Positions 5,008-46,788 of a stretch of 64,000 nt of DNA are shown piece by piece. The position numbers and the translations under genes were made by a program. Where the stretch lies: positions 496,001-560,000 of the forward strand of contig JAQGEQ010000351.1 of assembly GCA_034620365.1 (NCBI GenBank), in the 5' to 3' direction. Source of the stretch: Pegea sp. RAD2-039. Lineage: Eukaryota; Chordata; Thaliacea; Salpida; Salpidae. A model generated the notes under the pieces. That model was not told the origin of the DNA. It ran no database searches and saw only the letters and a list, made by a program, of their open reading frames with translations. Every line of letters starts with the position of its first letter. The first letter of the stretch is position 1.

Positions 5008-5046
5008 ATATTTATAAGACCTTTATTTAATTTTTTTATCAATAAA

Positions 5047-16560: not shown

Positions 16561-17835
16561 ATCATATAACAGGTACGATGATTGGTACTCTTTTCATCAC
16601 ACCCAGAGCTTCATCTCTTTCTAGAACTTCTCAGATTATGAGGATTGGAGGAAGAGTGTGATAGTTTATCTATTTAAGATCAAATATTGAACAAACAATC
16701 GCAAAAAGAATAAATGTTAAACAGTACCCAATAATTTGTAACAAAAGCACAATTAAAAAAAGTAGTAAGGTTATATGTAGCTATAAAACAGTAAATAAGT
16801 GATTTATTAATGTCAAATGAGATGGGTGGTTCTTTTATTTGCTGCAAAGGTTTATGAGAGTAACCCCAGAAATTGGGTTGGAGTCTTCGGTCACTCATGT
16901 GGTAAAATTCGGTCCTTACTGCGTAGGCTTAACTTTAAGTTCACTTGTAAGGGTGCTATTTTATCCAATGATGATGTAGTCAAGAATTTGCGAGAATGCG
17001 ACCGGTACTTGGCCATGTTGCCGTCCTTATCAATACCACATCATTTTGCTACCTAAAGTTGTGATAAAAATTCAGGTAATATTTGAATGGATTCGACTTT
17101 CAGTCGTTTCTATATTTTTGTTTCAGTCAAATATTCTACCACATAAGAGGGCAACTCTTGTGTTTCCTTATGTTGGGATTTGATTGCTATTTTTTGAAAA
17201 ACAGAAACTGCAGACATTAAAGTTCGGGCCATAAACCATATTGCTATAATTTCTGACAAACTTTCTACTTGATGTTTCAATGTCGAAATTGTATCTTGCA
17301 AAGTAACAATGGAATCAAAAATCAGTAAAAATTTCGAGTTTGATAATCAGGGCTACTTTTAATAAAACCTTACTCGATAAATTGCGTTATAGTTTTGCTT
17401 TTCAAATCTGATTAATAGTTTAAAATGTTGTTTGAAATGTGATACGAAATTATTTTATAGAAATAAAACTTCAGTGATTACTTTCTGCCAGATCATTCTG
17501 AGAAATAAATTAATGCAAAAAACTTCAGTCTATTTTTTGTATCCTGTTTTCGATATTCAAAGAAGGTAAAGAAGCATTTAATTATTTTGCCGAAACAATT
17601 TTTAAACTTACGTTTGGCTTCTATATCTTCAAATCTTTTCATTTTATGTCAAATATTACGCTAGTGTTGCACGAACCATTTCTTACTAAATAATCCGCAA
17701 GTTAAAGATTTTCATGATTCAAAGTTCACTGTCAAAATTTGAAGCTTCTTTTATTAGTTGTATCACGTAATCCATTAGCTACAAATTATTAAATGTTCAA
17801 TTTTTCTTGAAATAGAAGTTTTCACTTCGATAATG
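16561..17835. other. Intergenic sequence, no intact gene
   Basis: Short frames at 16680-16898 (minus), 16817-17056 (plus) and 17110-17301 (minus) are slightly more GC-rich than their surroundings. They may continue the neighbouring relic, but no motif is recognisable. Confidence 0.35.
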
Positions 17836-21194: not shown

Positions 21195-22867
21195 TTTTAG
21201 ATACAAATTTTCTTTCAGTCTCAGTGATCCAAAATTAAATTATTTCGGTGCTTAGTTAAAACTACAAAATAGAACAAGAAAAACTCAAAAATTCAATCAA
21301 ACACTTAATAATAAATAAAAATTAAAAATAGAATAAATTAAAAATCAATAATTTTATGTTAGTTTAGTGACAAGTATGACTAAGATAACTCGCTATTGAT
21401 AAATCTCAAATTTCTAAATTCATTAAAAGCTTTTATCAAAGTAATGATTTAAGTTGTATGACAAAAAGCAAATGGTTTACAGACAGTTGAACAAATCACT
21501 AATCGAAAGATAAACTTGTAATTAACTTTGATAATTAAAATGATAATAATCATTTGTGCGAGTTTTATCGCTTTCAAGATTGTACCCAATATAACAGCAG
21601 CCAACACAGTCTACTTTAAAAGTTCACGATGTACAACTAGTTACACTGATGTAGTCTGAAGCTCTGCTTCTCAAACAAGCATGTTCTAATTAGCAGGTGC
21701 TAATTCCGCTTTTTACTTTTATGGCCGAGTTTCATTCTGATTCTCATTTCAATAACTGCCTTATTAAATGTCAAGTAAAATAAAATAAAGTAGGATATAA
21801 AGAAGAATGAAAAATATTGGTAAGTATCAAAATAAGAAACATTAAATAATAAAAACTATTCATTGCACCTGTATGAAGTCTTTCCTGCCTTGAAATATTT
21901 CCTATCTTTTCTATTTCTTTGTTTTTGCTAACTGTTGATGAAAATCTTATTCACCTTTAATCGCTGTATTTGTACAATCCTGTGAGCTTAGGTTACTTGG
22001 ATGGTGACTATCAATCAGATCATATAATTTCTGACTAAAAAATCAAACTGACAGAAAAAAATGAACCAACAAAAACATTTGAAAAATAATAGAAAGTATT
22101 TAATGAAGAAAATCTTTATGAATTTTTTATTTATAAATAATTCTAAAATTATGATATAAAAATATATTTAGCAATTTGATAAGTTAACTGAAAATTATTC
22201 AAAATAAATTGAAGTTGACTTAAACAGAATGTTGAACATCAAGAAAAGATGTTGAAGAAAAGATACTTGAAGCAAAGTGTCAAGGTGAGCAATAAACTAA
22301 AATCTGATTTGCAATTTACAATATTCTACATTTCCATCACATTTCACGAATGAATGATTATTTTTAAGTTTGCTAAAAGTATCGCCCAATCAGAAAGTAA
22401 CAAGTTTTAAAAATTTCATGAAAGATAGGAAACAACTTTAATCTATGGATGAAGCCAGAAGAAATAAGTCTTAACTAGATTTTGAAATTTTAATTAAAAG
22501 TCAAACTTTGAAACTTGAATAAAAAAATAAATTATAAAAAATTCAAAAAGGAAATCTAGCAAAACAAATTTTTCAAATGAAATTTTTCTAGTAACATTAG
22601 AAATAAACTAAATAATTGCTCAGTTGTTTGTAGAATAGAAGAATTCAAATTAAATGCAAGAATTAAACAAACTGATCATAATTTTGAACAAAAAGAATGT
22701 TTATGTAAAAATATTTTTTAATAAAAAAAATAAAAAGAAACAAAAAGCGAATTTATAAATTAATAAATTTTATTTAACAACTAAATAGTATTCAAAATAA
22801 AAAGCTTCAACAAAAGTTTGAATAACTACTGATAGAATACATCTAGAGTTTCTAAAAGCTAACTTAC

Positions 22868-23006
22868 AAAATGTAAAGGGAATGCCTGAGGCAATTAACT
22901 CCAAGAGTTTTGCACGCTGACCAATAAGCGAAAGTTGATATCTCTTCATCTTTCTCTTTAGTTTAAAATTATTCACGCTTCAATGCTCATATACTATCTT
23001 AAATCT
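22868..23006 (-). other. Candidate small exon, left-arm copy
   Basis: Mirror of 26615-26753: an acceptor-like T-rich AG, an ATG at 22949 on the minus strand, 27 codons beginning MKRYQLSLIGQRAKLLELI, then a GTAAGT donor. Local GC is above the flanks. Partner exons were not found and the protein is not recognised. Confidence 0.25.
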
Positions 23007-23285
23007 CTAAAAAATGAGAAAACTTAACAAAATTGGATTTCTTCTTTTAATAGTCAATGCTTAAATAGGCTAATTAAAATAAATAATTTTTGAAAAATGT
23101 CATTTATTTACATTTATTTAGTTGAAGCTTTTTAAAAACTTAATAATCTCTTAGAAATGGTTTCAAAACAAATCAATAGACTATGACCAGATGTTAAAAA
23201 AAAATTTGATATTTTTATATAAAAATAATAAATAACAATTTCAGAAACAATTTTAAACCAATAGCATAATAAAATATTTTTGAAA

Positions 23286-26336: not shown

Positions 26337-26614
26337 TTTCAAAAATATTTTATTATGCTATTGATTTAAAATTGTTTCTGAAATTGTTATTTATTATTTT
26401 TATATAAAAATATCAAATTTTTTTTTAACATCTGGTCATAGTCTATTGATTTGTTTTGAAACCATTTCTAAGAGATTATTAAGTTTTTAAAAACTTCAAC
26501 TAAATAAATGTAAATAAATGACATTTTTCCAAAATTATTTATTTTAATTAGCCTATTTAAGGATTCACTATTAAAAGAAGAAATCCAATTTTGTTAAGTT
26601 TTCTCATTTTTTAG

Positions 26615-26753
26615 AGATTTAAGATAGTATATGAGCATTGAAGCGTGAATAATTTTAAACTAAAGAGAAAGATGAAGAGATATCAACTTTCGCTTATTGG
26701 TCAGCGTGCAAAACTCTTGGAGTTAATTGCCTCAGGCATTCCCTTTACATTTT
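26615..26753 (+). other. Candidate small exon, right-arm copy
   Basis: Bounded by a T-rich acceptor ending at 26614 and a strong GTAAGT donor at 26754. The ATG at 26672 opens 27 codons (MKRYQLSLIGQRAKLLELI then ASGIPFTF) and a partial codon. The full 68-residue open frame is identical in the left arm. The protein is not recognised, and no following exon was found. Confidence 0.27.
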
Positions 26754-28426
26754 GTAAGTTAGCTTTTAGAAACTCTAGATGTATTCTATCAGTAGTTATT
26801 CAAACTTTTGTTGAAGCTTTTTATTTTGAATACTATTTAGTTGTTAAATAAAATTTATTAATTTATAAATTCGCTTTTTGTTTCTTTTTATTTTTTTTAT
26901 TAAAAAATATTTTTACATAAACATCCTTTTTGTTCAAAATTATGATCAGTTTGTTTAATTCTTGCATTTAATTTAAATTCTTCTATTCTACAAACAACTG
27001 AGCAATTATTTAGTTTATTTCTGATGTTACTAGAAAAATTTCATTTGAAAAATTTCTTTTGCTAGATTTCCTTTTTGAATTTTTTATAATTGATTTTTTT
27101 ATTCAAGTTTCAAAGTTTGACTTTTAATTAAAATTTCAAAATCTAGTTAAGACTTATTTCTTCTGGCTTCATCCATAGATTAAAGTTGTTTCCTATCTTT
27201 CATGAAATTTTTGAAACTTGTTACTTTCTGATTGGGCGATACTTTTAGCAAACTTAAAAATAATCATTTATTCGTGAAAAGTGATGGAAATGTAGAATAT
27301 TGTAAATTGCAAATCAGATTTTAGTTTATTGCTCACCTTGACACTTTGCTTCAAGTATCTTTTCTTCAACATCTTTTCTTGATGTTCAACATTCTGTTTA
27401 AGTCAACTTCAATTTATTTTGAATAATTTTCAGTTAACTTATCAAATTGCTAAATATATTTTTATATCATAATTTTAGAATTATTTATAAATAAAAAATT
27501 CATAAAGATTTTCTTCATTAAATACTTTCTATTATTTTTCAAATGTTTTTGTTGGTTCATTTTTTTCTGTCAGTTTGATTTTTTAGTCAGAAATTATATG
27601 ATCTGATTGACAGTCACCATCCAAGTAACCTAAGCTCACAGGATTGTACAAATACAGCGATTAAAGGTGAATAAGATTTTCATCAACAGTTAGCAAAAAC
27701 AAAGAAATAGAAAAGATAAGAAATATTTCAAGGCAGGAAAGACTTCATACAGGTGCAATGAATAGTTTTTATTATTTAATGTTTCTTATTTTGATACTTA
27801 CCAATATTTTTCATTCTTCTTTATATCCTACTTTATTTTATTTTACTTGACATTTAATAAGGCAGTTATTGAAATGAGAATCAGAATGAAACTCGGCCAT
27901 AAAAGTAAAAAGCGGAATTAGCACCTGCTAATTAGAACATGCTTGTTTGAGAAGCAGGGCTTCAGACTACATCAGTGTAACTAGTTGTACATCGTGAACT
28001 TTTAAAGTAGACTGTGTTGGCTGCTGTTATATTGGGTACAATCTTGAAAGCGATAAAACTCGCACAAATGATTATTATCATTTTAATTATCAAAGTTAAT
28101 TACAAGTTTATCTTTCGATTAGTGATTTGTTCAACTGTCTGTAAACCATTTGCTTTTTGTCATACAACTTAAATCATTACTTTGATAAAAGCTTTTAATG
28201 AATTTAGAAATTTGAGATTTATCAATAGCGAGTTATCTTAGTCATACTTGTCACTAAACTAACATAAAATTATTGATTTTTAATTTATTCTATTTTTAAT
28301 TTTTATTTATTATTAAGTGTTTGATTGAATTTTTGAGTTTTTCTTGTTCTATTTTGTAGTTTTAACTAAGCACCGAAATAATTTAATTTTGGATCACTGA
28401 GACTGAAAGAAAATTTGTATCTAAAA

Positions 28427-29800
28427 ATGCCGAGAAAAAAACGAAATCGAATTACGGAAGCTACAAAACGCAGCTCTAAACAAAGTCACTACTTTGAGGT
28501 TTATGGACTTGATGACAAACTCGTTGATGAAAGATTTAATGTGAATCTTGCAAAGGAGATGAATGGAAAAGAGTTGAGTATGGATTACATTAAAACCTCA
28601 GGTTTCAAACAACCATTAGTCTTCCGACAATCAGATGGTCTTGACATGAAAATGCCTTCCGAAGGTATTTCTGGTGTAGACCAGATAGGAAGTTTGATAG
28701 GTAAAGATATGGTTATTCCAGTTGAAGATGTTACAAACTCGACAACCATATTTCAAACAATGAGTGAATTTTGTAAATATTTCAAATCAAAAGATAGAAA
28801 AAATATTTACAACGTTCTTTCATTAGAGTTTTCGTTTACTGAACTAGACGAACAAGTTGAAAGACCTTCTGTAATCAATCAATTTGATTGGATTGAATGT
28901 TTCTTTCCAAGAGAACTCAAAGATGAAGAAGGTGATAATTATCCACTGATCCAAAAATATTGTTTAATGTCAGCTGCAAACAGCTTCACCACTTTCCATA
29001 TTGATTTTGGTGGAACTTCAGTCTGGTATCACGTCTTAAAAGGATGTAAAGTATTTTGGTTGATTGAACCAAATAAGAAAAATTTAGAAATTTATGAAAA
29101 ATATTACAAAAATAAAACATCCCTTGATGTATTTTTTGGTGACCTTGTTGAAAAATGTCAACGAGTCACATTAACTGCTGGCAACACATTTTTGATGCCA
29201 AGTGGTTGGATTCATGCAGTTTATACGCCAGAAGACTCCATAGTGTTTGGAGGAAACTTTACTCACAGTCTCGCAGTGGAGATGCAGCTGAAGATTTCCG
29301 AAATGGAAAAACGTCTTAAGATAATGAATGTTCGAAGATTTCCTCTAGAAATCAATCTCTATTGGTTTGTAATTGAAGATCTGGTATTTATGAAAACAGG
29401 AAAATCTTTTTTATTTCATAACTTTAAACGCTTGAATCAAGAAAAAGATAAAGACGAAGACTTTTCCTTAATTGGAACTGATGGAATGAAAATGCTAGTT
29501 GATCATCTAAGCCACTACTTGTCTGAACAAATAGAAGGAATTACTGATGTTAAAGAATTATGGTTTTCAGCTGTAGATATATTAGGAATGAATGAAAAAT
29601 ATTCATCTCTGTTAGTTTCTCACAACAAAATTGCTGCATCCCCATCTAGTTCATCTGAAAATGTTTCGGCTATAAAACATAGCATCAAGAGAACTTCATC
29701 TAGTGCTGTTGGAAGAAGCTCCAAGAAGCAAAGACCAACCCAAACAGCCACGAGAAGATCAACTAGAAAGAGATTTCAATCCAAAAAGTGCGATCAATAA
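28427..29800 (+). CDS. KDM7/PHF8-type JmjC histone lysine demethylase, right-arm copy
   Basis: Second intact, intronless 457-residue copy. It differs from the left copy by one residue (Val25 instead of Ala25, one C-to-T change); other stretches of the coding region that I compared were identical at the base level. The catalytic set H191/D193/H263 with T188 and K206 is complete. The two genes point away from the palindrome centre. The 5' sequence is also nearly identical for some 500 bases, whereas 3' flanking sequence differs by about 2-6 per cent, consistent with recent gene conversion over the gene. Retention of both open frames argues that both are, or recently were, under selection. The lack of a PHD finger means histone targeting must work differently from PHF8. 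Confidence 0.9.
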   Translation: MPRKKRNRITEATKRSSKQSHYFEVYGLDDKLVDERFNVNLAKEMNGKELSMDYIKTSGFKQPLVFRQSDGLDMKMPSEGISGVDQIGSLIGKDMVIPVEDVTNSTTIFQTMSEFCKYFKSKDRKNIYNVLSLEFSFTELDEQVERPSVINQFDWIECFFPRELKDEEGDNYPLIQKYCLMSAANSFTTFHIDFGGTSVWYHVLKGCKVFWLIEPNKKNLEIYEKYYKNKTSLDVFFGDLVEKCQRVTLTAGNTFLMPSGWIHAVYTPEDSIVFGGNFTHSLAVEMQLKISEMEKRLKIMNVRRFPLEINLYWFVIEDLVFMKTGKSFLFHNFKRLNQEKDKDEDFSLIGTDGMKMLVDHLSHYLSEQIEGITDVKELWFSAVDILGMNEKYSSLLVSHNKIAASPSSSSENVSAIKHSIKRTSSSAVGRSSKKQRPTQTATRRSTRKRFQSKKCDQ

Positions 29801-32466
29801 AAGAATGAAGATTTTAAAATAATGAAATGAAGTTTCAGCTTTACGGAGCTTTTTATTCGTTTAGCAGTTTTTAAATTTTAAATAATAATGTTTAGCCTTG
29901 ATCAAAGTTTTGAAATGTTTTACGTTTTTAATTTTAGTTTAGATTTCAAATGGGTTTGTTTCAATCATGTCTTTTAGTAAACTTTGTTCTTTTTCCTTCA
30001 ATTTAAATTAAAAATGCTATCATTAAAGATAGTTTGGAAATTGTTATTAAGGTTCATTGATAAGCTGATTATTATAAATTAATTTCTCAAATTCAGTTAA
30101 ATTGTCTTCATGTTTTTATTCAATTTAAAAGAAAGTTATTTGAAGCTTTTGACTTTTAAACGATTCATTTTTTCTTCTCAGGTAATAATTTTTAGTTTAT
30201 AACCTTTTGAAGTCTGCAAATATATAGCATCATTAGTTGCATCAAAAGTTGAAATTAATAGCTATATATTTAGTGATATGTTATAAGTTTGCTTTTTTCA
30301 AAATATCATACAGTTAAAAATTGATTAAGAATTCTGTTGATTTTTGATTAAAATAAAAGTTTAACAAAAATGATGGACAAACCTTCTTAATTCAGTTTAA
30401 CATTTATTTATCTAATTATTTCTTTTCAATTTTCAAAAAACATACTAAATAAGATCTTATCAGAAATCATATCAATTTGAAAGAGCTAAATAGAAGTTTT
30501 AGAGTTATAAATGATTTTTTTATATACTTGAAAATTGATTAGATAAAATTAAAACATAATCTTATCATTTACAAAACATGAAAAATGTCTTTTAATGAAG
30601 AGCAATTTAACTTTAAGAACAAATTCAAACATTAAAATTGAAATTAAAGTTTTGAGAAACCAAGTCTAAAAGAAAAAAGAAAAAAAGGACTCTAAGATGA
30701 ATAACTCAGCTACTAGCATTAATCTATTACCTTAATATCCTGTAACTTGTATAAAAAATTTGATTTAATTATTGATTACATAGTTGCTGATTTAATCTTA
30801 CTATCTTTCGCCAAATGTTATTACCATTACTTAATATCAAATATGATAGTTATAAACATCGTCTCAGCTTCTTCAATTTAGATACTTTGGAAATTCGACT
30901 GACTTAATGAGATTTAATTCTTATTTTAGAAAATTATCCACAATTTAATTGACCTTCAGTTTGATGACTTCTTTTCCATTAGTCCTTCCCTCAAGTTATA
31001 TCAACTCAGACGACACACATTACATCTTAATAATCCCATATCACCTGGTACATTAATCAGAGCGAATTTTTTTCTCATAACGCACAATTAGTACTTGGAA
31101 CCAGCTGCCATCAGATTTTAAATAAAATTATAGTTGCTTCTATTATTGAACTGCTTTTATAGATATTACAAATAAAATTATTTAGATCAAAAGCAATAAA
31201 ATATTTAGTATTTTTTTATAACTAATGTAAATCATAAAACTAATATGATATTGTTCACTTTAATCACTTATATCATATACAAACAAAATACTTTGTATAA
31301 AATTAAATCACAATTATATTTGTGTCAGCTTTTTTCTCTTTTAGAAAATAATAAGGTTTTGAAGAATGCTAAAAAGTTTAGTTGATTTTACTCTCACCAA
31401 TAACTCAACTTTACAGATTGTTTTCTTTCCTCTATTAAACAAGTAGTGTAGTTCATCAAGTTACAAATTGATACAACTGTTAAAACTTTGTTTAGTTCTT
31501 TTGTGATGTTTGAAGACACACAAAAAAGATTTATAATTTTAAACAAATGGTTTACTATTTCTTTTCTTTATTATTTACCACATTTGATTTAAATTATCTT
31601 TGTTTAAAAGAACATAATTATGAAAAAATTAAAAACATCTTTAGATAAAAATAATGTAATTTCGTTTAACAATTGAACTATTAACAAAATTCCTACAAAA
31701 AGCTGAAATTGTAGTTAAATGTATGAGCAATATAAAGTTGACTATTTGTTTGTAAAATTAATCGAAATAATAAAAACTAACATTTTTTGAAAATTGATGA
31801 TTTAAGGATAAAAGAGAAAGATGAATAAAAGTTTTTTTGTTGTAAATCTTTATGTTTAAACTCATCAAAACTACTTGTTTATTTATAAAGATGTTAACTT
31901 TTAAGTCTCAAATCAAACATTAAATCATAGCTAAAAGTTTGCCAAATATATTTATTGCTATATTTATTCTAAAAAGCTATAATCATCAAATGTAAAAAAT
32001 GTTGTTAAACAATTTAAAATATGCTATTTAAATTAAACTAGAAAAAATCTATACTAAAAGATTTATCAATGTTTCGATTTATTAGAGAGTTATTGAAAAA
32101 GTTATTATGAATTGTTATCTAAAAAACTTTTCAATTAATCAGCAGCTGATATTATTAAAGTTCTTTCTTGTCACATATACTTTTTTGTATCAGTACATTG
32201 TTTGTTTCCTGATGTGAAAGCTTTGAAGGAAGCAAAACAAATGCAATTACTAATATTCAGTAAAGAACATGTAGCACAAGGAAGTAAAAAGCTTTGAAAG
32301 CTGGAGTTTTTCACTTTTAATCAATTACTTTTGTGAAGGTATGCAAACCAATGATTACTTTGTGATTTACCTTCCTTTTAATTATCTAAAATCCTTTTAT
32401 TATATCTTTAATATATCTGTTATAAATGGTTCAATTCTCATAGTTTTCTGATTCATTGTATTAATG

Positions 32467-32475
32467 TATAGAAAA
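32467..32475 (+). promoter_or_regulatory. TATA-like box of peptide gene copy 1
   Basis: TATAGAAAA lies 92 bases before the peptide start codon and recurs at the same place in all four units. Transcription would begin about 30 bases downstream, leaving a short leader. The sequence is seen; promoter function is inferred. Confidence 0.35.
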
Positions 32476-32558
32476 CTTCAAATCTGTTACATAAAACATA
32501 ACACTCTGCAACTAACCAACATATTATTTCTCAACAGTTAAAAACTCAAAATCTCAAG

Positions 32559-33279
32559 ATGAACGCCAAAATACTTTTCGTGTTGATTGCTGTATGCCTT
32601 GTTGGTTTTTCAGAGGCTGATTGGTCTCGCTATTAGTAAGTGATATGACTTTTATATTAGCTACCAAACCTTCATCAGATTTCTAACTGATCAATTCAAT
32701 TATCTTATAAATTAAAACTTACAGAAACCTACTTTGCTTAAATCTCTATATGATTTTATCTAACTTAATTAACATGAAACTTTTTGTAGTCTCCGTCGTG
32801 CATGGAGAAGATTCCATCATGTAGCTTATTGCTACCTTGGAGATGAACAGGTAGATTGAAAGTAGTTTGAACAATTTTCAAACATCAAAATTTATTTACA
32901 GGGATATGATCACGATCAATATGAAAAGACATTGGTGTCATTGTTGAATGATTTAAGTGATCAAGTTGGAGAAACAGATGCTCGTATGTTAGTTACTGAT
33001 ATGGCTCGTTATGTTGAAGCTACAAACTCAGGTTTGAACAAATTGTCGATAAATTGAATTTTTAAAGAATTATTATAAAATAGAATCAAGATTATTTCGA
33101 ATTTTTGGTTTTAATGTAATTTTAGAAGCTTCTAATTTATATTAAAAGTAATATCTAATATATTTTCAAAATAATATAATTATAAAACATTTGAATTTAA
33201 ATTTCGACTTTTAGCATCGAAGAAAGACTTTAACTTTGATGGAGCTCTTCCTCATCTAGACACTGATCTTTCCAACTAA
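32559..33279 (+). CDS. Secreted cationic peptide precursor, array copy 1
   Basis: Four exons (32559-32635, 32790-32850, 32902-33031, 33215-33279), all with GT-AG borders and agreeing phases, give 110 residues. Residues 1-20 (MNAKILFVLIAVCLVGFSEA) are a classic signal peptide. The mature start is DWSRYYLRRAWRRFHH, with five Arg in 26 residues, aromatic residues and a lone Cys at 40. From residue 43 the chain becomes acidic (GDEQGYDHDQY, LSDQVGE, HLDTDLSN). Signal, short basic amphipathic segment and acidic tail is the layout of tunicate styelin/clavanin and fish piscidin antimicrobial precursors. A pheromone or neuropeptide is possible. No sequence homologue is known to me, so function is inferred from architecture only. 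Unspliced, exon 1 would meet TAG at once; splicing at TA|GTAAGT avoids it. Confidence 0.85.
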
Positions 33280-33405
33280 TCGAAGTGAAACGATCTCTGG
33301 AAGACTTGAAAATGTTGACTAACAAACTTTTCTTTCTTAAATCTTCTTATTATCATTTAAATTGAGCTTTTTTCATGTTGTTATAATAGAAAAATAATTT
33401 GCACA

Positions 33406-33411
33406 AATAAA
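33406..33411 (+). terminator. Poly(A) signal of peptide gene copy 1
   Basis: AATAAA 127 bases after the stop codon, repeated in the other units (for example 35864-35869). Confidence 0.6.
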
Positions 33412-34260
33412 ATATTCTTAAAACAAATTAACTTTTTATTGACTTAATAACTTCTTTCATTGGAAGTCTGATTTGAATTCAGCGTCAATACAGATAGATT
33501 GATAAAAGAATGAAGTAGAAGGAAATTAAAAGCTTTTATATTATTCAGCAAATGGACATCATCTTTCTACAAATGTTTGAACATAACAATACCAATTTTT
33601 GATTTTGATTATCAACTTGATAAAAGTTCAGTTTTTTAATTATAATTGATATAAATCTTACATAAATCATTAGTTGGTACAAATCTCAAAATAAATTATC
33701 AAAATAAATGTTTATGTCGATTTAATTATCTGAGCCTACAAAATAGCTTACAACAAGGAAAGAAAAATTTGTGATAAATTAACTAAATTAATTTTCAAAA
33801 ATCAATTGAATAAATAAGTATACTTATTTCAATAATAATTTTTATGTGTTTTGAATAATAAGAATTAGTTGTTTTTCGATGTTTAACTTTTAAAATTTCT
33901 TAATAAACTTTATCTAAATTGTATAAAATTTATCTGTAGATTTGTTTCATACTTACTTAACTCAAGTAAAAGTTTCAAATTTGATAAATAACAAATTATA
34001 AATCATTTATGTCCTTTTTACAGCAACAAAACTCTTTATTATTTTGTTAGATAAAAATATACTTAACTAAAAGTTTTCAGAATAAAAATATGCTAAATAT
34101 CTAGTTTAAGAATGTTAGTAAAATAATTGTTTTTACTATAGTCTTTTGTAATTATCTATAACAAAATAAATAAAAAAAATTTCTATTAACATAGACTCTA
34201 AAATTGTAAATATTAATCAGAATAACTTAAGAACTAAAACAATTTTTATTAAAACTTTTT

Positions 34261-36718
34261 AAGGATAAAAGAGAAAGATGAATAAAAGTTTTTTTGTTGT
34301 AAATCTTTATGTTTAAACTCATCAAAACTACTTGTTTATTTATAAAGATGTTAACTTTTAAGTCTCAAATCAAACATTAAATCATAGCTAAAAGTTTGCC
34401 AAATAGATTTATTGCTATATTTATTCTAAAAAGCTATAATCATCAAATGTAAAAAATGTTGTTAAACAATTTAAAATATGCTATTTAAATTAAACTAGAA
34501 AAGATCTATACTTAAAGATTTTATCAATGTTTCGTTTTATTAGAGAGTTATTGAAAAAGTTATTATGAATTGTTATCTAAAAAACTTTTCAATTAATCAG
34601 CAGCTGAAATTATTAAAGTTCTTTCTTGTCACATATACTTTTTTGTATCAGTACATTGTTTGTTTCCTGATGTGAAAGCTTTGAAGGAAGCAAAACAAAT
34701 GCAATTACTAATATTCAGTAAAGAACATGTAGCACAAGGAAGTAAAAAGCTTTGAAAGCTGGAGTTTTTCACTTTTAATCAATTACTTTTGTGAAGGTAT
34801 GCAAACCAATGATTACTTTGTGATTTACCTTCCTTTTGATTATCTAAAATCCTTTTATTATATCTTTAATATATCTGTTATAAATGGTTCAATTCTCATA
34901 GTTTTCTGATTCATTGTATTAATGTATAGAAAACTTCAAATCTGTTACATAAGACATAACACTCTGCAACTAACCAACATATTATTTCTCAACAGTTAAA
35001 AACTCAAAATCTCAAGATGAACGCCAAAATACTTTTCGTGTTGATTGCTGTATGCCTTGTTGGTTTTTCAGAGGCTGATTGGTCTCGCTATTAGTAAGTG
35101 ATATGACTTTTATATTAGCTACCAAACCTTCATCAGATTTCTAACTGATCAATTCAATTATCTTATAAATTAAAACTTACAGAAACCTACTTTGCTTAAA
35201 TCTCTATATGATTTTATCTAATTTAATTAACATGAAACTTTTTGTAGTCTCCGTCGTGCATGGAGAAGATTCCATCATGTAGCTTATTGCTACCTTGGAG
35301 ATGAACAGGTAGATTGAAAGTAGTTTGAACAATTTTCAAACATCAAAATTTATTTACAGGGATATGATCACGATCAATATGAAAAGACATTGGTATCATT
35401 GTTGGATGATTTAAGTGATCAAGTTGGAGAAGCAGATGCTCGTATGTTAGTTACTGATATGGCTCGTTATGTTGAAGCTACAAACTCAGGTTTGAACAAA
35501 TTGTCGATAAATTGAATTTTTAAAGAATTATTATAAAATAGAATCAAGATTATTTCGAATTTTTGGTTTTAATGTAATTTTAGAAGCTTCTAATTTATAT
35601 TAAAAGTAATATCTAATATATTTTCAAAATAATATAATTATAAAACATTTGAATTTAAATTTCGACTTTTAGCATCGAAGAAAGACTTTAACTTTGATGG
35701 AGCTCTTCCTCATCTAGACACTGATCTTTCCAACTAATCGAAGTGAAACGATCTCTGGACGACTTGAAAATGTTGACTAACAAACTTTTCTTTCTTAAAT
35801 CTTCTTATTATCATTTAAATTGAGCTTTTTTCATGTTGTTATAACAGAAAAATAATTTGCACAAATAAAATATTCTTAAAACAAATTAACTTTTTATTGA
35901 CTTAATAACTTCTTTCATTGGAAGTCTGATTTGAATTCAGCGTCAATACAGATAGATTGATAAAAGGATGAAGTAGAAGGAAATTAAAAGCTTTTATATT
36001 ATTCAGCAAATGGATATCATCTTTCTACAAATGTTTGAACATAACAATACCAATTTTTGATTTTGATTAGCAACTTGATAAAAGTTCAGTTTTTTAATTA
36101 TAATTGATATAAATCTTACATAAATCATTAGTTAGTACAAATCTCAAAATAAATTATCAAAATAAATGTTTATGTCGATTTAAATATCTGAGCCTACAAA
36201 ATAGCTTACAACAAGGAAAGAAAAATTTGTGATAAATTAACTAAATTAATTTTCAAAAATCAATTGAATAAATAAGTATACTTATTTCAATAATAATTTT
36301 TATGTGTTTTGAATAATAAGAATTAGTTGTTTTTCGATGTTTAACCTTTAAAATTTCTTAATAGACTTTATCTAAATTGTATAAAATTTATCTGTAGATT
36401 TGTTTCATACTTACTTAACTCAAGTAAAAGTTTCAAATTTGATAAATAACAAATTATAAATCATTTATGTCCTTTTTACAGCAACAAAACTCTTTATTAT
36501 TTTGTTAGATAAAAATATACTTAACTAAAAGTTTTCTGAATACGAATATGCTAAATATCTAGTTTAAGAATGTTAGTAAAATAATTGTATTTACTATAGT
36601 CTCTTGTAACTATCTATAACAATATAAATAAAAAAAATTTCTATTAACATAGACTCTAAAATTGTAAATATTAATCAGAATAACTTAAGAACTAAAACAA
36701 TTTTTATTAAAACTTTTT
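34261..36718 (+). repeat. Tandem array unit 2
   Basis: Second unit, 2458 bases, colinear with unit 1 and differing by scattered substitutions and small indels. Confidence 0.97.
35017..35737 (+). CDS. Secreted cationic peptide precursor, array copy 2
   Basis: Same four-exon structure and 110-residue product as copy 1, shifted by 2458 bases. The signal peptide and cationic segment (DWSRYYLRRAWRRFHH) are identical to copy 1. The acidic part has SLLDDLSDQVGEADAR where copy 1 has SLLNDLSDQVGETDAR. The donor TA|GTAAGT and all other splice sites are intact, as are the TATA-like box and poly(A) signal. No disabling mutation was seen. Confidence 0.85.
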
Positions 36719-39176
36719 AAGGATAATAGAGAAAGATGAATAAAAGTTTTTTTGTTGTAAATCTTTATGTTTAAACTCATCAAAACTACTTGTTTATTTA
36801 TAAAGATGTTAACTTTTAAGTCTCAAATCAAACATTAAATCATAGCTAAAAGTTTGCCAAATAGATTTATTGCTATATTTATTCTAAAAAGCTATAATCG
36901 TCAAATGTAAAAAATGTTGTTAAACAATTTAAAATATGCTATTTAAATTAAACTAGAAAAGATCGATACTTAAAGATTTTATCAATGTTTCGTTTTATTA
37001 GAGAGTTATTGAAAAAGTTATTATGAATTGTTATCTAAAAAACTTTTCAATTAATCAGCAGCTGATATTATTAAAGTTCTTCCTTGTCACATATACTTTT
37101 TTGTATCAGTACATTGTTTGATTCCTGATGTGAAAGCTTTGAAGGAAGCAAAACAAATGCAATTACTAATATTCAGTAAAAAACATGCAGCACAAGGAAG
37201 TAAAAAGCTTTAAAAGCTGGAGTTTTTCACTTTTAATCAATTACTTTTGTGAAGGTATGCAAACCAATGATTACTTTGTGATTTACCTTCCTTTTAATTA
37301 TCTAAAATCCTTTTATTATATCTTTAATATATCTGTTATAAATGGTTCAATTCTCATAGTTTTCTGATTCATTGTATTAATGTATAGAAAACTTCAAATC
37401 TGTTACATAAAACATAGCACTCTGCAACTAACCAACATATTATTTCTCAACAGTTAAAAACTTAAAATCTCAAGATGAACGCCAAAATACTTTTCGTGTT
37501 GATTGCTGTATGCCTTGTTGGTTTTTCAGAGGCTGATTGGTCTCGCTATTTGTAAGTGATATGACTTTTATATTAGCTACCAAACCTTCATCAGATTTCG
37601 AACTGATCAATTCAATTATCTTTTAAATTAAAACTTGCAGAAAACTGCTTTGCTTAAATCTCTATATGATTTTATCTAATTTAATTAACATGAAACTTTT
37701 TGTAGTCTCCGTCGTGCATGGAGAAGATTCCATCATGTAGCTTATTGCTACCTTGGAGATGAACAGGTAGATTGAAAGTAGTTTGAACATTTTTCAAACA
37801 TCAAAATTCATTTACAGGGATATGATCACGATCAATATGAAAAGACATTGGTATCATTGTTGGATGATTTAAGTGATCAAGTTGGAGAAGCAGATGCTCG
37901 TATGTTAGTTACTGATATGGCTCGTTATGTTGAAGCTACAAACTCAGGTTTGAACAAATTGTCGATAAATTGAATTTTTAAATAATTATTATAAAATAGA
38001 ATCAAGATTATTTCGAATTTTTGGTTTTAATGTAATTTTAGAAGCTTCTAATTTATATTAAAAGTAATATCTAATATATTTTCAAAATAATATAATGATA
38101 AAACATTTGAATTTAAATTTCGACTTTTAGCATCGAAGAAAGACTTTAACTTTGATGGAGCTCTTCCTCATCTAGACACTGATCTTTCCAACTAATCGAA
38201 GTGAAACGATCTCTGGACGACTTGAAAATGTTGACTAACAAACTTTTCTTTCTTAAATCTTCTTATTATCATTTAAATTGAGCTTTTTTCATGTTGTTAT
38301 AATAGAAAAATAATTTGCACAAATAAAATATTCTTAAAACAAATTAACTTTTTATTGACTTAATAACTTCTTTCATTGGAAGTCTGATTTGAATTCAGCG
38401 TCAATACAGATAGATTGATAAAAGAATGAAGTAGAAGGAAATTAAAAGCTTTTATATTATTCAGCAAATGGACATCATCTTTCTACAAATGTTTGAACAT
38501 AACAATACCAATTTTTGATTTTGATTAGCAACTTGATAAAAGTTCAGTTTTTTAATTATAATTGATATAAATCTTACATAAATCATTAGTTAGTACAAAT
38601 CTCAAAATAAATTATCAAAATAAATGTTTATGTCGATTTAATTATCTGAGCCTACAAAATAGCTTACAACAAGGAAAGAAAAATTTGTGATAAATTAACT
38701 AAATTAATTTTCAAAAATCAATTGAATAAATAAGTAGACTTATTTCAATAATAATTTTTATGTGTTTTGAATAATAAGAATTAGTTGTTTTTCGATGTTT
38801 AACCTTTAAAATCTCTTAATAAACTTTATCTAAATTGTATAAAATTTATCTGTAGATTTGTTTCATACTTACTTAACTCAAGTAAAAGTTTCAAATTTGA
38901 TAAATAACAAATTATAAATCATTTATGTCCTTTTTACAGCAACAAAACTCTTTATTATTTTGTTAGATAAAAATATACTTAACTAAAAGTTTTCAGAATA
39001 CGAATATGCTAAATATCTAGTTTAAGAATGTTAGTAAAATAATTGTTTTTACTATAGTCTTTTGTAATTATCTATAACAATATAAATAAAAAAAATTTCT
39101 ATTAACATAGACTCTAAAATTGTAAATATTAATCAGAATAACTTAAGAACTAAAACAATTTTTATTAAAACTTTTT
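36719..39176 (+). repeat. Tandem array unit 3
   Basis: Third unit, 2458 bases, colinear with units 1 and 2. Confidence 0.97.
37475..38195 (+). CDS. Secreted cationic peptide precursor, array copy 3
   Basis: Same structure. Exon 1 ends TT instead of TA before GTAAGT, so residue 26 is Phe (DWSRYFLRRAWRRFHH) rather than Tyr. The acidic part carries the SLLDDLSDQVGEADAR form shared with copy 2. Splice sites and signals are intact. Confidence 0.85.
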
Positions 39177-41560
39177 AAGGATAAAAGAGAAAGATGAATA
39201 AAAGTTTTTTTGTTGTAAATCTTTATGTTTAAACTCATCAAAACTACTTGTTTATTTATAAAGATGTTAACTTTTAAGTCTCAAATCAAACATTAAATCA
39301 TAGCTAAAAGTTTGCCAAATAGATTTACTGCTATATTTAATCTAAAAAGCTATAATCATCAAATGTAAAAAATGTTGTTAAACAATTTAAAATATGCTAT
39401 TTAAATTAAACTAGAAAAAATCTATACTTAAAGATTTATCAATGTTTCGATTTATTCGAGAATTATGGAAAAAGTTATTATGAATTGTTATCTAAAAAAC
39501 TTTTCAATTAATCAGCAGCTGAAATTATTAAAGTTCTTTCTTGTCACATATACTTGTTTGTATCAGTACATTGTTTGATTCCTGATGTGAAAGCTTTGAA
39601 GGAAGCAAAACAAATGCAATTACTAATATTCAGTAAAGAACATGCAGCACAAGGAAGTAAAAAGCTTTAAAAGCTGGAGTTTTTCACTTTTAATCAATTA
39701 CTTTTGTGAAGGTATGCATACCAATGATTACTTTGTGATTTACCTTCCTTTTAATTATGTAAAATCCTTTTATTATATCTTTAATATATCTGTTATAAAT
39801 GGTTCAATTCTCATAGTTTTCTGATTCATTGTATTAATGTATAGAAAACTTCAAATCTGTTACATAAAACATAGCACTCTGCAACTAACCAACATATTAT
39901 TTCTCAACAGTTAAAAACTCAAAATCTCAAGATGAACGCCAAAATACTTTTCGTGTTGATTGCTGTATGCCTTGTTGGTTTTTCAGAGGCTGATTGGTCT
40001 CGCTATTTGTAAGTGATATGACTTTTATATTAGCTACCAAACCTTCATCAGATTTCCAACTGATCAATTCAATTATCTTATAAATTAAAACTTACAGAAA
40101 ACTGCTTTGCTTAAATCTCTATATGATTTTATCTAATTTAATTAACATGAAACTTTTTGTAGTCTCCGTCGTGCATGGAGAAGATACAATCATATAGCTT
40201 TTTGCAACGTTGGAGATCAACAGGTAGATTGAAAGTAGTTTGAACATTTTTCAAACATCACAATTTATTTACAGGGATGTGATCACGATCAATATAAAAA
40301 GACATTGGTGTCATTGTTGAATGATTTAAGTGATCAAGTTGGAGAAACAGATGCTCGTATGTTAGTTACTGATATGGCTCGTTATGTTGAAGCTACAAAC
40401 TCAGGTTTGAACAAATTGTCGATAAATTGACTTTTTAAAGAATTATTATAAAATAGAATCAAGATTATTTCGAATTTTTGGTTTTAGTGTAATTTTAGAA
40501 GCTTCTAATTTATATTAAAAGTAATATCTAATATATTTTCAAAATAATATAATGATAAAACATTTGAATTTAAATTTCGACTTTTAGCATCGAAGAAAGA
40601 CTTTAACTTTGATGGAGCTCTTCCTCATCTAGACACTGATCTTTCCAACTAATCGAAGTGAAACGATCTCTGGACGACTTGAAAATGTTGACTAACAAAC
40701 TTTTCTTTCTTAAATCTTCTTATTATCATTTAAATTGAGCTTTTTTCATGTTGTTATAATAGAAAAATAATTTGCACAAATAAAATATTCTTAAAACAAA
40801 TTAACTTTTTATTGACTTAATAACTTCTTTCATTGGAAGTCTGATTTGAATTCAGCGTCAATACAGATAGATTGATAAAAGAATGAAGTAGAAGGAAATT
40901 AAAAGCTTTTATATTATTCAGCAAATGGACATCATCTTTCTACAAATGTTTGAACATAACAATACCAATTTTTGATTTTGATTAGCAACTTGATAAAAGT
41001 TCAGTTTTTTAATTATAATTGATATAAATCTTACATAAATCATTAGTTGGTACAAATCTCAAAATAAATTATCAAAATAAATGTTTATGTCGATTTAATT
41101 ATCTGAGCCTACAAAATAGCTTACAACAAGGAAAGAAAAATTTGTGATAAATTAACTAAATTAATTTTCAAAAATCAATTGAATAAATAAGTATACTTAT
41201 TTCAATAATAATTTTTATGTGTTTTGAATAATAAGAATTAGTTGTTTTTCGATGTTTAACCTTTAAAATCTCTTAATAAACTTTATCTAAATTGTATAAA
41301 ATTTCTCTGTAGATTTGTTTCATACTTACTTAACTCAAGTAAAAGTTTCAAATTTGATAAATAACAAATTATAAATCATTTATGTCCTTTTTACAGCAAC
41401 AAAACTCTTTATTATTTTGTTAGATAAAAATATACTTAACTAAAAGTTTTCAGAATACGAATATGCTAAATATCTAGTTTAAGAATGTTAGTAAAATAAT
41501 TGTATTTACTATAGTCTTTTGTAATTATCTATACGAATATAAATAGAAAAAATTTCGATT
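39177..41560 (+). repeat. Tandem array unit 4, 3'-truncated
   Basis: Fourth unit, colinear with the others until about 41560, roughly 75 bases short of a full period. After that the sequence becomes a LINE endonuclease relic. Confidence 0.95.
39932..40652 (+). CDS. Secreted cationic peptide precursor, array copy 4, divergent
   Basis: Intact four-exon gene for 110 residues. The signal peptide and first part of the cationic segment match copy 3. Between residues 34 and 54 nine changes are private to this copy: F34Y, H35N, V37I, Y39F, Y41N, L42V, E45Q, Y48C and E54K. All nine bases are amino-acid changing and none is silent, while intron 2, which separates the two exons involved, has only one private change in about 51 bases. 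It gains a second Cys (40 and 48), allowing an internal disulfide. The rest of exon 3 has the N and T variants of copy 1. No stop, frameshift or lost splice site, so decay is unlikely; diversifying selection is the favoured inference. Confidence 0.85.
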
Positions 41561-41836
41561 GACTATTTAACGATGTTAGTAAACTTTGACTAATTATTGT
41601 TGATGTCTTCGTAAGAGTTGAAAACAGAAATCCAGTCAACACCTGGTAGAAACTTGTTAATGCCATTATAATTTCCACAGTAAAAATTCCTTTTGCTTGA
41701 AGTTTTAAGGTTCATAAAACAAGTTTGATGGAGCTTGAATTTAATCATGTTGTGATTGCATGTCAGAACAAAGGGTTCTTTTTGATCAACGTAGATAATG
41801 TACTCAGGTTTTGATGTGATGAGAAGATCCAAAGTA
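41561..41836 (-). mobile_element. LINE endonuclease (APE/EEP) relic, C-terminal part
   Basis: The minus-strand frame 41590-41832 reads like the end of the apurinic-type endonuclease domain of CR1/L2-like non-LTR retrotransposons: a LDLVFT-like start (MDLLITSKPEYI), a degenerate catalytic SDH motif (CNHNMIKFKL), then KRNFYCGNYNGINKFL and VDWISVF. The catalytic Ser-Asp is replaced by Cys-Asn, and the rest of the element is missing, so it is a dead fragment. Confidence 0.55.
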
Positions 41837-42032
41837 TCAGCAGCTGATATTATTAAAGTTCTTTCTTGTCACATATACTTGTTTGTATCAGTACATTGTT
41901 TGTTTCCTGATGTGAAAGCTTTGAAGGAAGCAAAACAAATGCAATTACTAATATTCAGTAAAGAACATGCAGCACAAGGAAGTAAAAAGCTTTGAAAGCT
42001 GGAGTTTTTCACTTTTTATCAATTACTTTTGT
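41837..42032 (+). repeat. Orphan 196-bp fragment of the array unit
   Basis: Nearly identical to an internal, non-coding part of each unit (32140-32335 in unit 1), with the same orientation. It starts at cagcagctgatatt and ends in caattacttttgt. It lies within the LINE endonuclease relic and has neither unit boundary, so it is not simply the end of unit 4. The open frame 41798-41995 is incidental. Confidence 0.9.
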
Positions 42033-42251
42033 TTGCCACTTTGACGACAAACTTCCCATTACTGCAAAGATGAAATTAACCTTGACGGGGTCGAGATTCT
42101 TATCCGGTGCAATTGATTCGCCACACATAAGGATAAAACCATGGCGATGACTTGAAGTCTGGAGCTTTTTAAGCACTTCAATCAAAAATGTTTGAATTTT
42201 GAGATCAAAACCGTTGATTGGGATCAAAAATTGGGATTGAGGTGAAATCAT
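42033..42251 (-). mobile_element. LINE endonuclease (APE/EEP) relic, central part
   Basis: On the minus strand this lies upstream of the 41561-41836 piece. HGFILMCGESIAPDKN occupies the place of the ILxGDFNxP motif of LINE endonucleases, degenerate at the catalytic Asp-Phe-Asn. With the neighbouring fragment it makes a plausible broken endonuclease domain separated by the array fragment. Confidence 0.4.
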
Positions 42252-43491: not shown

Positions 43492-44850
43492 GGTGCTATA
43501 AAACAAGTGTCTACTTGAATCTACTTTCATACAAGATCTGACGGAAGTCTTTTCAGTGCATCACGTCTGAAGGCGAAAAACAAGTTGAAAAATATAAAAA
43601 TTTCATAAAGCATTTTCTACTCAAAAATGTTAACATTGTAGTATTATTTTGAATAATAGCTTTATAAATTTTATTTGCTAGCAAACGTTCAAAAGTGTTA
43701 AAGCCACAAAATATTAACTAAAGTATAGTATTTTTTTATCGATTAAATAAATGCTTTCAAAATTTTATATTTTTTAATGTTTACTTTTTCGTAATGTCAT
43801 TAAATTTTTGCCTAATTGATTGGAACTTTGTTTATTCTACAATATGGTTCATTTTTAAATATTCTGTCAGTCTAACAGAGGTCATGTTAGGAAAAATTCA
43901 AACTGTCGTTTAAAAGTTTGGCTATTGAATTTTTTAAGATTAGTCTGGTGTTTAGGTTCATCATTAGTTGATTATTATGAAATAATTAAAAAGTTGAGAT
44001 TACTTATTATTTTTTTATTCCTGTTAAATTAAGCATCATTTGTTTATCAAATAATTTAGTTATAAATATATTCTCTTTTTTATTATTAGCTTGTGATAGG
44101 CATATGTTTATTTGTTGTTTTTTTATATGGCAGTCACGGCTTTGACTCTAAACTATCTAATTATTAAAAAATTATTTATTCTTGGACGTTACTAGTTTGT
44201 TTTCTAAAGCATATTTTAAATGTTATTTTTATACTCATATTTAGTCAATATTTTGATTTTTTAAAGTTTGATAAGTTAAAAATATTTTAAAATTTTGTTT
44301 TACTTTTTTTGTCTTTTTAGTAGTACTAAAAGGTGGTAGATTCATATATATATATTATTATTGTTATTAGTAATTATTTAAAGTTATTAGCAATATAAAT
44401 TTTTGTACAATATTTTTGAAGTTTAAGCTTATATGTTTTAAGTCTATCAAAGTAAAATATATAGAAACCTTTATTTTTATTTTGTCCTTTTTAGATCAAA
44501 TTATATTTAAATGAAAACTAAATTGTTTTATAAAGTTATTATATGTACATGAGAGTAAAAAATAGTTTTTTTCTGTTTTTGGGTTGTTCATGATTTTATG
44601 TATGTAGTAATAATTTAATTTTTATCTTTTTTATTTATAATATTAATGAAAATTTTTATTCAACTGAATAAGACAACTATTTAATATGATATAACTCAAA
44701 TATGGCATACTTTTCAATATATAATAGTAGTTTTAAATGATTATTTATATATTTACTGATTATATATGATAATTATTGCTGATGATTTTATTAGTAAAGC
44801 TTGAGAGTCAGTTTGTTTTTAGTCTACTTTTAGTTGTTACTGGAGTAGAA
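43492..44850. other. AT-rich sequence before DZIP1, no gene seen
   Basis: No exon recognised. The sequence T-rich then TAG near 44821 could be a splice acceptor for the DZIP1 coding exon. Confidence 0.4.
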
Positions 44851-46788
44851 ATGTGTTCTTCATTAATTGACCATAGCCAGGAAATTGAAAGTGATAAAAA
44901 GTTTGCTGGTTTTCCAGACTTTCATTTTCAGAAAAGATGTTTGGAAGTAAATTGGAGAAAGTTAAGCGCAGTAAATCTTGATAAAGTTGTGCTAGAATTA
45001 GATTTTATGCTTTTGCAGGAAAATATCAGTAATATTACTTTTTGTAATATCGATTTAGTTACAGATTTGGACCCTCTAGTTAATAGACTCATAAAATTAG
45101 CACAGTATACTATAGAATACTTATTACATTCACAAGACTATTTACAAACTGTTATAAAAAGTCTTGAAAATAAAATATCTGATACAATTAAAGAATGTGA
45201 CAAAGCAAAAGAAGATGCTATGAAGCAACATAATGTAATATCTAAACTTAAGGAAGATAATAAAAAAAGAATGAAAACTATACAACAACAACAATTGTTG
45301 ATTGAATCAGGAGCATCAAGTTATTTTCAGTGCCCACATTGTTCAAAAGCATTTTTAAACTCTGCATTTCTTCAAGGCCATATAAATAGAAGACATCCTC
45401 AACAAGCATCTTATATTGGTGATGTTATTGCTCATGCTGAAAATGAACAAAAAAAGCTTTGTAATCAAATAAAAGGCCTTGAAGCAAATCTTCATCATGA
45501 AAAACAAAGTTTAGAAAGCAAATTAACTCAAGCTATAGATTGTAAAGAAAAATGGAACAAAGAAGCTTTCAGTGAGATGAAGATTTGGAAACAAAAAGAA
45601 GAATCTGCATGGCTAGAAAAGTTTAACAGCTTAGAAAAAAAGTATATATCAGAAATAAAAAACTTGAAAAAAAATGAAGTTGTGTATGAAAATAAAATTA
45701 GTTCTCTGCAAAAAGTATTAGAAGCTAATCAATCGAATTTAGGTGATTTAGTAGAAGATTATCGTGAGGAGAAACGTAAAATAAGAAAGTTTGAAAGCAA
45801 AGTATGTGATTTAGAAAAAACTACTGAAGAAAAAATCAAAGAAATGATCAATATGTCCCATGAGTTGATAGATATCAGACATGATACTAAGAATAAACAC
45901 TTTCAACAAGAATTAAAATTGAGTAAAAAGATAAATGAACTTGATGAAAAATTTCAAACCCTAGTTTTACCTAAACAAGATTATGTAGAAGCAAAAGTTC
46001 TGGTCAACACTTCTTCATCTACAGCAGAAATCTCTCAAAATAAAACTAATACTTATAACAGTTTAATTTTGAATGAAAAAGCTAACACTTTACAATCTAA
46101 TAAAAATGTTTTTGTAGAAAAAGTCGAATCGGCAGAATTCGATGAATTGCCTTGTGTTGATAAGGGTGAAGCAAATTTTGAAGATGAACGGTATGAACTG
46201 AAGCAAACATTTAAACCTTTAGTTTGCAGTCTATTTGAAGAGCATTTGAAGAAATATGAAATTGATTCATCTAATAAAAGAATAAGTGAAGAAGAGTTGA
46301 AAGAAAAACAACATCTTTTCAAGAAATTAAATGTTAATGATAGCTATGATGTTTCACATAAGCAAACAAAAGAAAACATTGTCATGGAAATGAATAAAAG
46401 GTTTTCGAAAAATGTACCTCCTAAAATTGATTCTAACTTTCAAAAACCTATAAAAATGACAGACGATGAAATTATCAGAAACGAAATTATAGAAAGAATC
46501 CATGTAAACTCTTATAATGAAAAAAAATGTTCTCAATCGCTAAAAGAAAATGTTAAAGATCAGAATCAGATATTTGAAACAGAGCAGACTAAAGCTGATG
46601 AATATTCTGAGCCAAAACGAAATTTTCTGGATGTGTCTGAAAGCATAAGTAGTACAAATTGTGTAGATAAGAAGATGCCAGACAAAAATTGTAGTATTAC
46701 TTATGTTTCTAAACTTGAGTCAGACTGGGATAAGAGTTCAAGTGATTCTTCAATTCCTTGTTTAGATGACTCATCTAGTATTCAGTGA
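44851..46788 (+). CDS. DZIP1: DZIP1/DZIP1L-like zinc-finger ciliogenesis protein
   Basis: Single coding exon for 645 residues from the ATG giving MCSSLIDHS; the frame is open 23 codons further to an ATG at 44782, but that extension is hydrophobic and may be intron. The DZIP1 N-terminal domain is clear: VNWRKLSAVNLDKV, LQENISNITFCN, then LIKLAQYTIEYLLHSQDYL (residues about 30-115). A single C2H2 finger follows at 161-182 (C161, C164, H177, H182; FQCPHCSKAFLNSAFLQGH). Coiled coil extends to about 380; the tail is charged and low-complexity. DZIP1 proteins act at basal bodies and centriolar satellites in cilium formation and Hedgehog signalling. The chain is shorter than vertebrate DZIP1 (~870). 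ETFB starts 240 bases downstream on the same strand. Confidence 0.92.
   Translation: MCSSLIDHSQEIESDKKFAGFPDFHFQKRCLEVNWRKLSAVNLDKVVLELDFMLLQENISNITFCNIDLVTDLDPLVNRLIKLAQYTIEYLLHSQDYLQTVIKSLENKISDTIKECDKAKEDAMKQHNVISKLKEDNKKRMKTIQQQQLLIESGASSYFQCPHCSKAFLNSAFLQGHINRRHPQQASYIGDVIAHAENEQKKLCNQIKGLEANLHHEKQSLESKLTQAIDCKEKWNKEAFSEMKIWKQKEESAWLEKFNSLEKKYISEIKNLKKNEVVYENKISSLQKVLEANQSNLGDLVEDYREEKRKIRKFESKVCDLEKTTEEKIKEMINMSHELIDIRHDTKNKHFQQELKLSKKINELDEKFQTLVLPKQDYVEAKVLVNTSSSTAEISQNKTNTYNSLILNEKANTLQSNKNVFVEKVESAEFDELPCVDKGEANFEDERYELKQTFKPLVCSLFEEHLKKYEIDSSNKRISEEELKEKQHLFKKLNVNDSYDVSHKQTKENIVMEMNKRFSKNVPPKIDSNFQKPIKMTDDEIIRNEIIERIHVNSYNEKKCSQSLKENVKDQNQIFETEQTKADEYSEPKRNFLDVSESISSTNCVDKKMPDKNCSITYVSKLESDWDKSSSDSSIPCLDDSSSIQ

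Follow-up and report, generated by a model that had tools for sequence, protein, structure and literature searches.

Several antimicrobial peptide systems have been described in tunicates. The linear cationic candidates of Ciona (Ci-MAM, Ci-PAP, KH.S908.1 and others) have in common the order signal, cationic segment, anionic helix, with a C-terminal anionic helix in 17 of 22 (PMC7387483); the screen that yielded them took proteins of 50-100 residues and excluded Cys (PMC7387483). One of these candidates, KH.S908.1, reads AAL-GDEG at the junction, and the synthetic peptide inhibits E. coli and S. aureus at <3.125 µM (PMC7387483). In Styela clava, the styelins are described as C-amidated (PMC10608444), styelin A starting with G-X-F (PMC8719109), and the clavanins are C-amidated, His- and Phe-rich peptides of 23 residues (PMC8719109, PMC10608444). 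Botryllin, from Botryllus schlosseri, has a secreted precursor of 158 residues, of which 23 form the signal and 37 a cationic peptide (PMC9966394), and halocidin and dicynthaurin, from Halocynthia aurantium, are short peptides with one Cys, for which disulfide dimers are reported (PMC8719109). Here, we analyse an array of four tandem genes in a 64,000-nucleotide (nt) stretch of DNA from Pegea sp. RAD2-039 (the window; contig JAQGEQ010000351.1, C83:496001-560000). On the basis of sequence comparisons, we consider these genes likely to be four copies of the precursor of a host-defence, probably antimicrobial, peptide of a tunicate.

The precursors of the array and its closest relatives (groups A and B, defined below) consist of a signal, called by eye, a cationic segment and a predicted anionic helix, as in the Ciona candidates, and share an AL-G-DE junction with KH.S908.1. 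They fall outside the criteria of the Ciona screen in length (110-124 residues across A and B) and in the Cys of the window copies (Cys40 in the predicted peptide of all four units, with Cys48 added in unit 4 by a Y48C change outside the segment). The modelled sister genes of group A are Cys-free, and the exclusion of Cys was particular to that screen and does not define such peptides in general. Nine of 65 peptide pairs gave p values below 0.05, where about three were expected, the queries being related to each other. KH.S908.1 gave p=0.002, 0.013 and 0.010 for three of five queries, none significant after correction for the 65 pairs, in a comparison limited to the tabulated segments. We regard this similarity as a lead, and that to published peptides as only suggestive. 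The printed 20-residue N-termini of styelins A and B yielded no pair below p=0.05 (0/10), the start G-W-F of a C189 copy resembling the G-X-F of styelin A; of the amidation described for styelins, the counterpart seen here is the junction Gly only. The 10 pairs with halocidin and dicynthaurin yielded nothing convincing: dicynthaurin had no pair below 0.05, and halocidin had one, with the Cys-less C189b (p=0.036). Botryllin and the clavanins were compared by description: the botryllin precursor is longer than those found here, and the C189 peptides have 26 residues and five His, whereas the window copies are Arg-rich, with one or two His. A sequence-only reading of the window had likened the precursors to those of styelins, clavanins and fish piscidins, the likeness to the last being one of general layout only. 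The charge layout holds, as in the Ciona candidates (PMC7387483), but membership in a named family is not supported, no family match having been judged real.

The array and its relatives in the genome

Four tandem units of about 2.46 kb, starting near positions 31804, 34261, 36719 and 39176 of the window (Table 1), were found as the sequence-only reading had proposed, each with a four-exon gene and an open product of 110 residues (4/4 units). The exons are 77, 61, 130 and 65 nt long (the last including the stop), the introns, of 154, 51 and 183 nt, have GT..AG ends in all four units, and an AATAAA lies 126 nt past the stop in each. The gene of unit 1 spans 32559-33279, exactly as claimed. The signal sequence ending in SEA, the single-Cys segment rich in Arg and aromatic residues and the acidic tail of that description are all present, and none of the nine open reading frames (ORFs) of at least 100 amino acids in the window lies inside the array, in keeping with the view that the exons are too short to show as ORFs. 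As the units are 98-99% alike, open frames by themselves say little, and diverged relatives were therefore sought.

The family search covered the genome of origin (105.7 Mb, 387 contigs). Group A comprises 12 genes (four in the window, three at C83:461-466k, two at C83:102-104k and three on C189), all with open models (12/12), in which exon 2 is 61 nt long in the window and 73 nt in the other copies. Group B comprises six tail-exon loci on C6 and C44, again with open models (6/6), four made by script (77/97/130/71 nt) and two read by eye from three frames. Protein identity between groups A and B is 34-35%, and their intron phases are shared. Open models throughout both groups, at this level of identity and with the same phases, place the gene model beyond chance, and the genes are, judged by comparison, real.

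These data bear on the alternative that the array is functionless repetitive DNA, its gene model being a chance arrangement duplicated beside a large inverted repeat. The array does start at the end of an inverted repeat with arms of about 5.5 kb, the similarity of the units proves little alone, and the donor of the third intron (GTTTGA) has a poor consensus in 12/12 group A copies. A further weakness of the gene model lies in exon 4, in which unit 1 and one C189 copy differ at 10/65 positions, close to the rate for intron 3 (34/183), with no clear constraint in this pair. The comparisons nonetheless speak strongly against this alternative, which we regard as highly improbable: the frames, the phases and the 77-nt exon 1 are kept between groups A and B at 34-35% protein identity, and exon 3 is constrained (2/130 for unit 1 versus the C189 copy, against 67/385 in the introns; p=1.4e-7).

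An AACAG resembling a 3' splice site occurs 21-22 nt upstream of the ATG in 12/12 group A models (32532-32537 in unit 1), TTTTTTCAG is found about 13 nt upstream of the ATG in 4/4 group B models, and TTTACAG lies near the ATG in both group D models shown. These sequences are candidates for a spliced-leader acceptor or an intron of the 5' untranslated region.

The tail exon is common to at least 42 loci: 12 in group A, six in group B and 24 in three further groups, which we delimited from this exon (C, nine loci; D, 14; E, one). These counts are lower bounds, and haplotype duplication may account for some of the loci, two of those in group B lying near contig ends. Splice models were built for five of the 24 group C-E loci (L019, L020, L026, L030 and L033), each with a 74-nt exon 1 ending in phase 2 and an exon 2 ending in phase 0. 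The script accepted only an exon 1 of 74 nt and an exon 2 ending in frame at phase 0, so that phase 0 agrees with a shared structure but does not prove it independently; no phase-2 end was imposed in the exon 1 search. Two of the five models had competing choices of exon 2, between which the best pyrimidine tract decided, and the exon 1 search found none at L038 and L041. Profile comparison of groups A/B with C/D/E gave a probability of 97.8 (E=8.5e-13, 72 columns), values inflated by the inclusion of the signal peptide. A Cys directly follows the presumed signal peptide in 5/5 aligned group C-E sequences, and also in exon 1 of L037.

The two group A genes at C83:102-104k form a head-to-head pair (L010:2964 on the minus strand and L010:4382 on the plus strand). 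Their exons 1-3 and introns 1-2 match the C83:461-466k copies almost exactly, whereas the upstream region, intron 3 and the downstream region are very different and exon 4 has diverged, a pattern that hints at segmental conversion or at a shuffling of exons.

Replacement change in the predicted peptide and constraint on the putative carrier

Comparison of unit 1 with one of the C83:461-466k copies (L009_3042) identified 16 replacement and no silent changes in the 22 codons compared of the predicted mature peptide, together with a 12-nt in-frame indel. Elsewhere in this pair, the signal has one replacement and one silent change, the region from Gly-Asp through exon 3 has neither, and the introns differ at 12/388 positions. 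Exon 2 alone differs at 12/61 positions (p=1e-5 against the introns). Likewise, 17 replacement and no silent changes separate unit 4 from L009_3042 (introns 8/388), and seven and none separate unit 1 from unit 4 (introns 9/388). A C189 pair (L011_4373 and L012_6045) also displayed only replacements, five in number (introns 9/392), with weak statistical support (p=0.014). Overall, exon 2 exceeded the introns with p≤0.0026 in five of eight pairs.

The pattern is not uniform, and this counts against the host-defence reading. The other three exon 2 tests showed no excess (p=0.28, 1 and 0.13), and no acceleration was detected between L009_3042 and L011_4373 (six replacement and two silent changes; introns 67/385) or between L009_3042 and L012_6045 (seven and two; introns 72/385). 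Moreover, the pairs compared share history, and the tally amounts to two firm cases and one weak. The L010 pair was left out of the rate comparison because its unrelated third intron inflates the intron rate (introns 1 and 2 alone, 5/205), and a replacement/silent count for exon 3 between groups A and B was set aside because it ignores a one-codon shift present in the protein alignment.

Gene conversion from a distant copy might also introduce replacement changes, but would be expected to add silent changes as well, none of which occur in the pairs between the window and C83:461-466k. From these codon counts, the peptide looks to be under diversifying change on a conserved carrier, in some lineages at least, and this evolutionary pattern is the strongest evidence for a host-defence role. 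In the best pair, the peptide has changed at about 10 times the intron rate on the same signal and carrier, providing a clean natural experiment on the evolution of an antimicrobial precursor.

Putative processing junction, charge and predicted structure

The peptide is followed by Gly43-Asp44, which is invariant in 9/9 aligned precursors of groups A and B. A Gly at such a junction is the usual amide donor. The layout is probably that of the ascidian linear cationic antimicrobial peptides, with the junction glycine probably serving for amidation. According to the mechanism we favour, the gene would be expressed and its product secreted, the signal peptide (residues 1-20) being cleaved off. A protease would then cut at the Gly-Asp junction and set free residues 21-42 (DWSRYYLRRAWRRFHHVAYCYL in unit 1), with Gly supplying the amide. 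Before release, the cationic peptide would be shielded by the acidic helical-hairpin domain (exons 3-4), and the released helix would attack microbial membranes and so kill. The lone Cys of the window copies may link two peptides, as in halocidin and dicynthaurin, a possible dimer limited to these copies among those modelled; for unit 4, an internal bond between Cys40 and the second Cys that follows at residue 48 is a possible alternative.

A glycine junction suited to amidation would also fit a secreted peptide used in signalling, be it a hormone, a neuropeptide, a gamete factor or an allorecognition factor, with an amidated C-terminus and a helical pro-domain, for which fast change would reflect co-evolution with a receptor; recognition factors are known to show replacement change limited to the peptide in the same way. 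We consider such a function unlikely: that the peptide is cationic and aromatic and is matched by an acidic counter-domain is a point against it, and the ascidian antimicrobial layout fits better. No dibasic site was seen at the junction between peptide and tail, a negative result that counts against a signalling peptide and against a host-defence peptide alike.

Charges were computed for seven precursors: the predicted peptide has a charge of +4 in group A and +7 in group B, and the portion after the Gly has -7 to -12 in group A and -17 in group B. The hairpin exon by itself ranges from -5 to -7 in the A/B tails (three computed) and from +1 to +4 in those of groups C, D and E (seven computed). 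The amphipathicity of the window peptides was only marginal. Helical moment was clearly above that of shuffled sequences in three Cys-less sister copies of group A (0/5000, p=0.007 and p=0.016). For exon 3 of unit 1, AlphaFold2, run on an alignment of six sequences, gave a mean predicted local distance difference test (pLDDT) score of 93.5 with helices at 4-22 and 24-42, and the tail exon is accordingly predicted to encode a two-helix hairpin.

The high confidence of this prediction, and the occurrence of the hairpin in all five groups, even those without a clearly cationic segment, would suit a small secreted helical protein acting whole, with the cationic helix and hairpin in one bundle for lipid binding or pore formation and no release of a peptide. 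A fast-changing peptide next to a static hairpin is better suited to separate roles, as is the presence in group A of a peptide of either 22 or 26 residues ahead of an almost unchanged hairpin, and we find action as a whole protein slightly less plausible still than signalling.

Several further observations weigh against a released, shielded antimicrobial peptide. Helical moment is marginal relative to shuffles in window units 1, 3 and 4 (p=0.052, 0.052 and 0.073), and group B does not exceed its shuffles (0.23). The charges of exon 2 alone overlap between groups: two group A genes have +2 and +1 with the junction residues counted, four group C-E genes have -2 to +1, and group B has +7, so that the contrast in cargo is clearer from the whole peptide than from exon 2. 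In groups C-E, the tail domain is present although exon 2 is not clearly cationic, so neutralizing charge is not its only role. Finally, no convincing family was found in Pfam, NCBIfam, the PDB or viral contigs, general animal genomes and proteins being outside the scope of these searches.

We tentatively suggest, with somewhat less than even confidence, that the approximately 42 loci form an undescribed tunicate superfamily, in which one helical-hairpin domain is coupled to differing exon 2 cargoes with its own charge shifted to match: an acidic carrier for a fast-evolving cationic peptide, and a basic domain, perhaps itself membrane-active, where the cargo has no clear cationic character. 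The earlier reading did not include the wider family, the restriction of rapid change to the peptide, the Gly-Asp junction or the paralogues with a basic tail domain. Paralogues with an oppositely charged carrier domain extend the natural experiment described above, and the host-defence reading also provides short, synthesizable peptide candidates, the source genes of which, with exons of at most about 43 codons, may have been missed by gene finders.

Tunicate context, database searches and neighbouring features

A GH6 match (C14:74494-75604) lies downstream of an exon matching Glyco_trans_2_3 and Cellulose_synt. A cellulose synthase gene is reported from all tunicate genomes and from no other animal genomes (PMC6523144). 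The genome is attributed to a tunicate because cellulose synthase and GH6 occur at one locus, and a tunicate host supports the antimicrobial reading, since this group has known peptides of such a kind. Base composition had suggested a rotifer, a reading that this locus replaces, and a search of the assembly for mitochondrial COX1 as a marker of lineage gave no match.

Profile, sequence and fold searches of Pfam, NCBIfam, the PDB and viral contigs gave no convincing homologue of the product. Weak, scattered Pfam matches were obtained for members of A1 and A3, the best to SurA_N_3 (0.00088, 2/5) and SEO_C (0.0013, 3/9), and NCBIfam gave five (best 0.017); all were judged to be due to chance. Four weak matches at E≤10 were obtained in the PDB with a single protein sequence (best 0.11) and four with a profile (best 0.008, PINS), which we attribute to chance or to helices of a generic kind. 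A Foldseek search with the hairpin returned no match at E≤0.001 (10 at E≤10), a two-helix hairpin being too small for a telling match, and the viral contigs contained no relative. Six short peptide stretches were absent from the literature searched, a result that holds for that limited set and those strings.

Table 1. Coordinates of the array, the exons of its four genes and the partial fifth copy, in window positions.
Feature	Position	Strand	Remarks
Tandem array, four 2.46 kb units	31804..41560	+	spacing 2458/2458/2457; pairwise identity 97.8-98.9%
Unit 1 exon 1 (signal peptide and first peptide residues; 77 nt, phase 2 end)	32559..32635	+	77 nt in all 16 script-made A/B models
Unit 1 exon 2 (remainder of predicted mature peptide and Gly-Asp junction; 61 nt)	32790..32850	+	outpaces introns in 5/8 pairs
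Unit 1 exon 3 (predicted acidic helical-hairpin domain; 130 nt)	32902..33031	+	AlphaFold2 mean pLDDT 93.5
Unit 1 exon 4 (acidic C-terminus and stop)	33215..33279	+	weak donor before intron 3
Unit 2 exon 1	35017..35093	+	gene model
Unit 2 exon 2	35248..35308	+	gene model
Unit 2 exon 3	35360..35489	+	gene model
Unit 2 exon 4	35673..35737	+	gene model
Unit 3 exon 1	37475..37551	+	gene model
Unit 3 exon 2	37706..37766	+	gene model
Unit 3 exon 3	37818..37947	+	gene model
Unit 3 exon 4	38131..38195	+	gene model
Unit 4 exon 1	39932..40008	+	gene model
Unit 4 exon 2	40163..40223	+	7/61 nt differ from unit 1
Unit 4 exon 3 (extra Cys48, E54K)	40275..40404	+	gene model
Unit 4 exon 4	40588..40652	+	gene model
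Fifth copy, partial (upstream region only, no gene seen)	41753..42052	+	74-75% identity across full 300 nt

The inverted repeat has arms at 17825-23285 and 26337-31806, of about 5.5 kb each, 98-99% alike and about 3.05 kb apart; the peptide array starts at the end of the right arm (31806). Each arm carries one of a near-identical pair of uninterrupted 461-codon ORFs (19821-21206, minus strand; 28415-29800, plus strand) with JmjC and Jumonji helical domains, perhaps retrocopies of a KDM2/7-like demethylase. A perfect TAT repeat of about 87 copies (180-439) reads as a poly-Leu ORF. Ordinary genes or gene parts in the window include Urm1 (5002-5349), a Dzip1-like N-terminus (44776-46788) and an aldo/keto reductase encoded by an uninterrupted 323-codon ORF (49118-50089).

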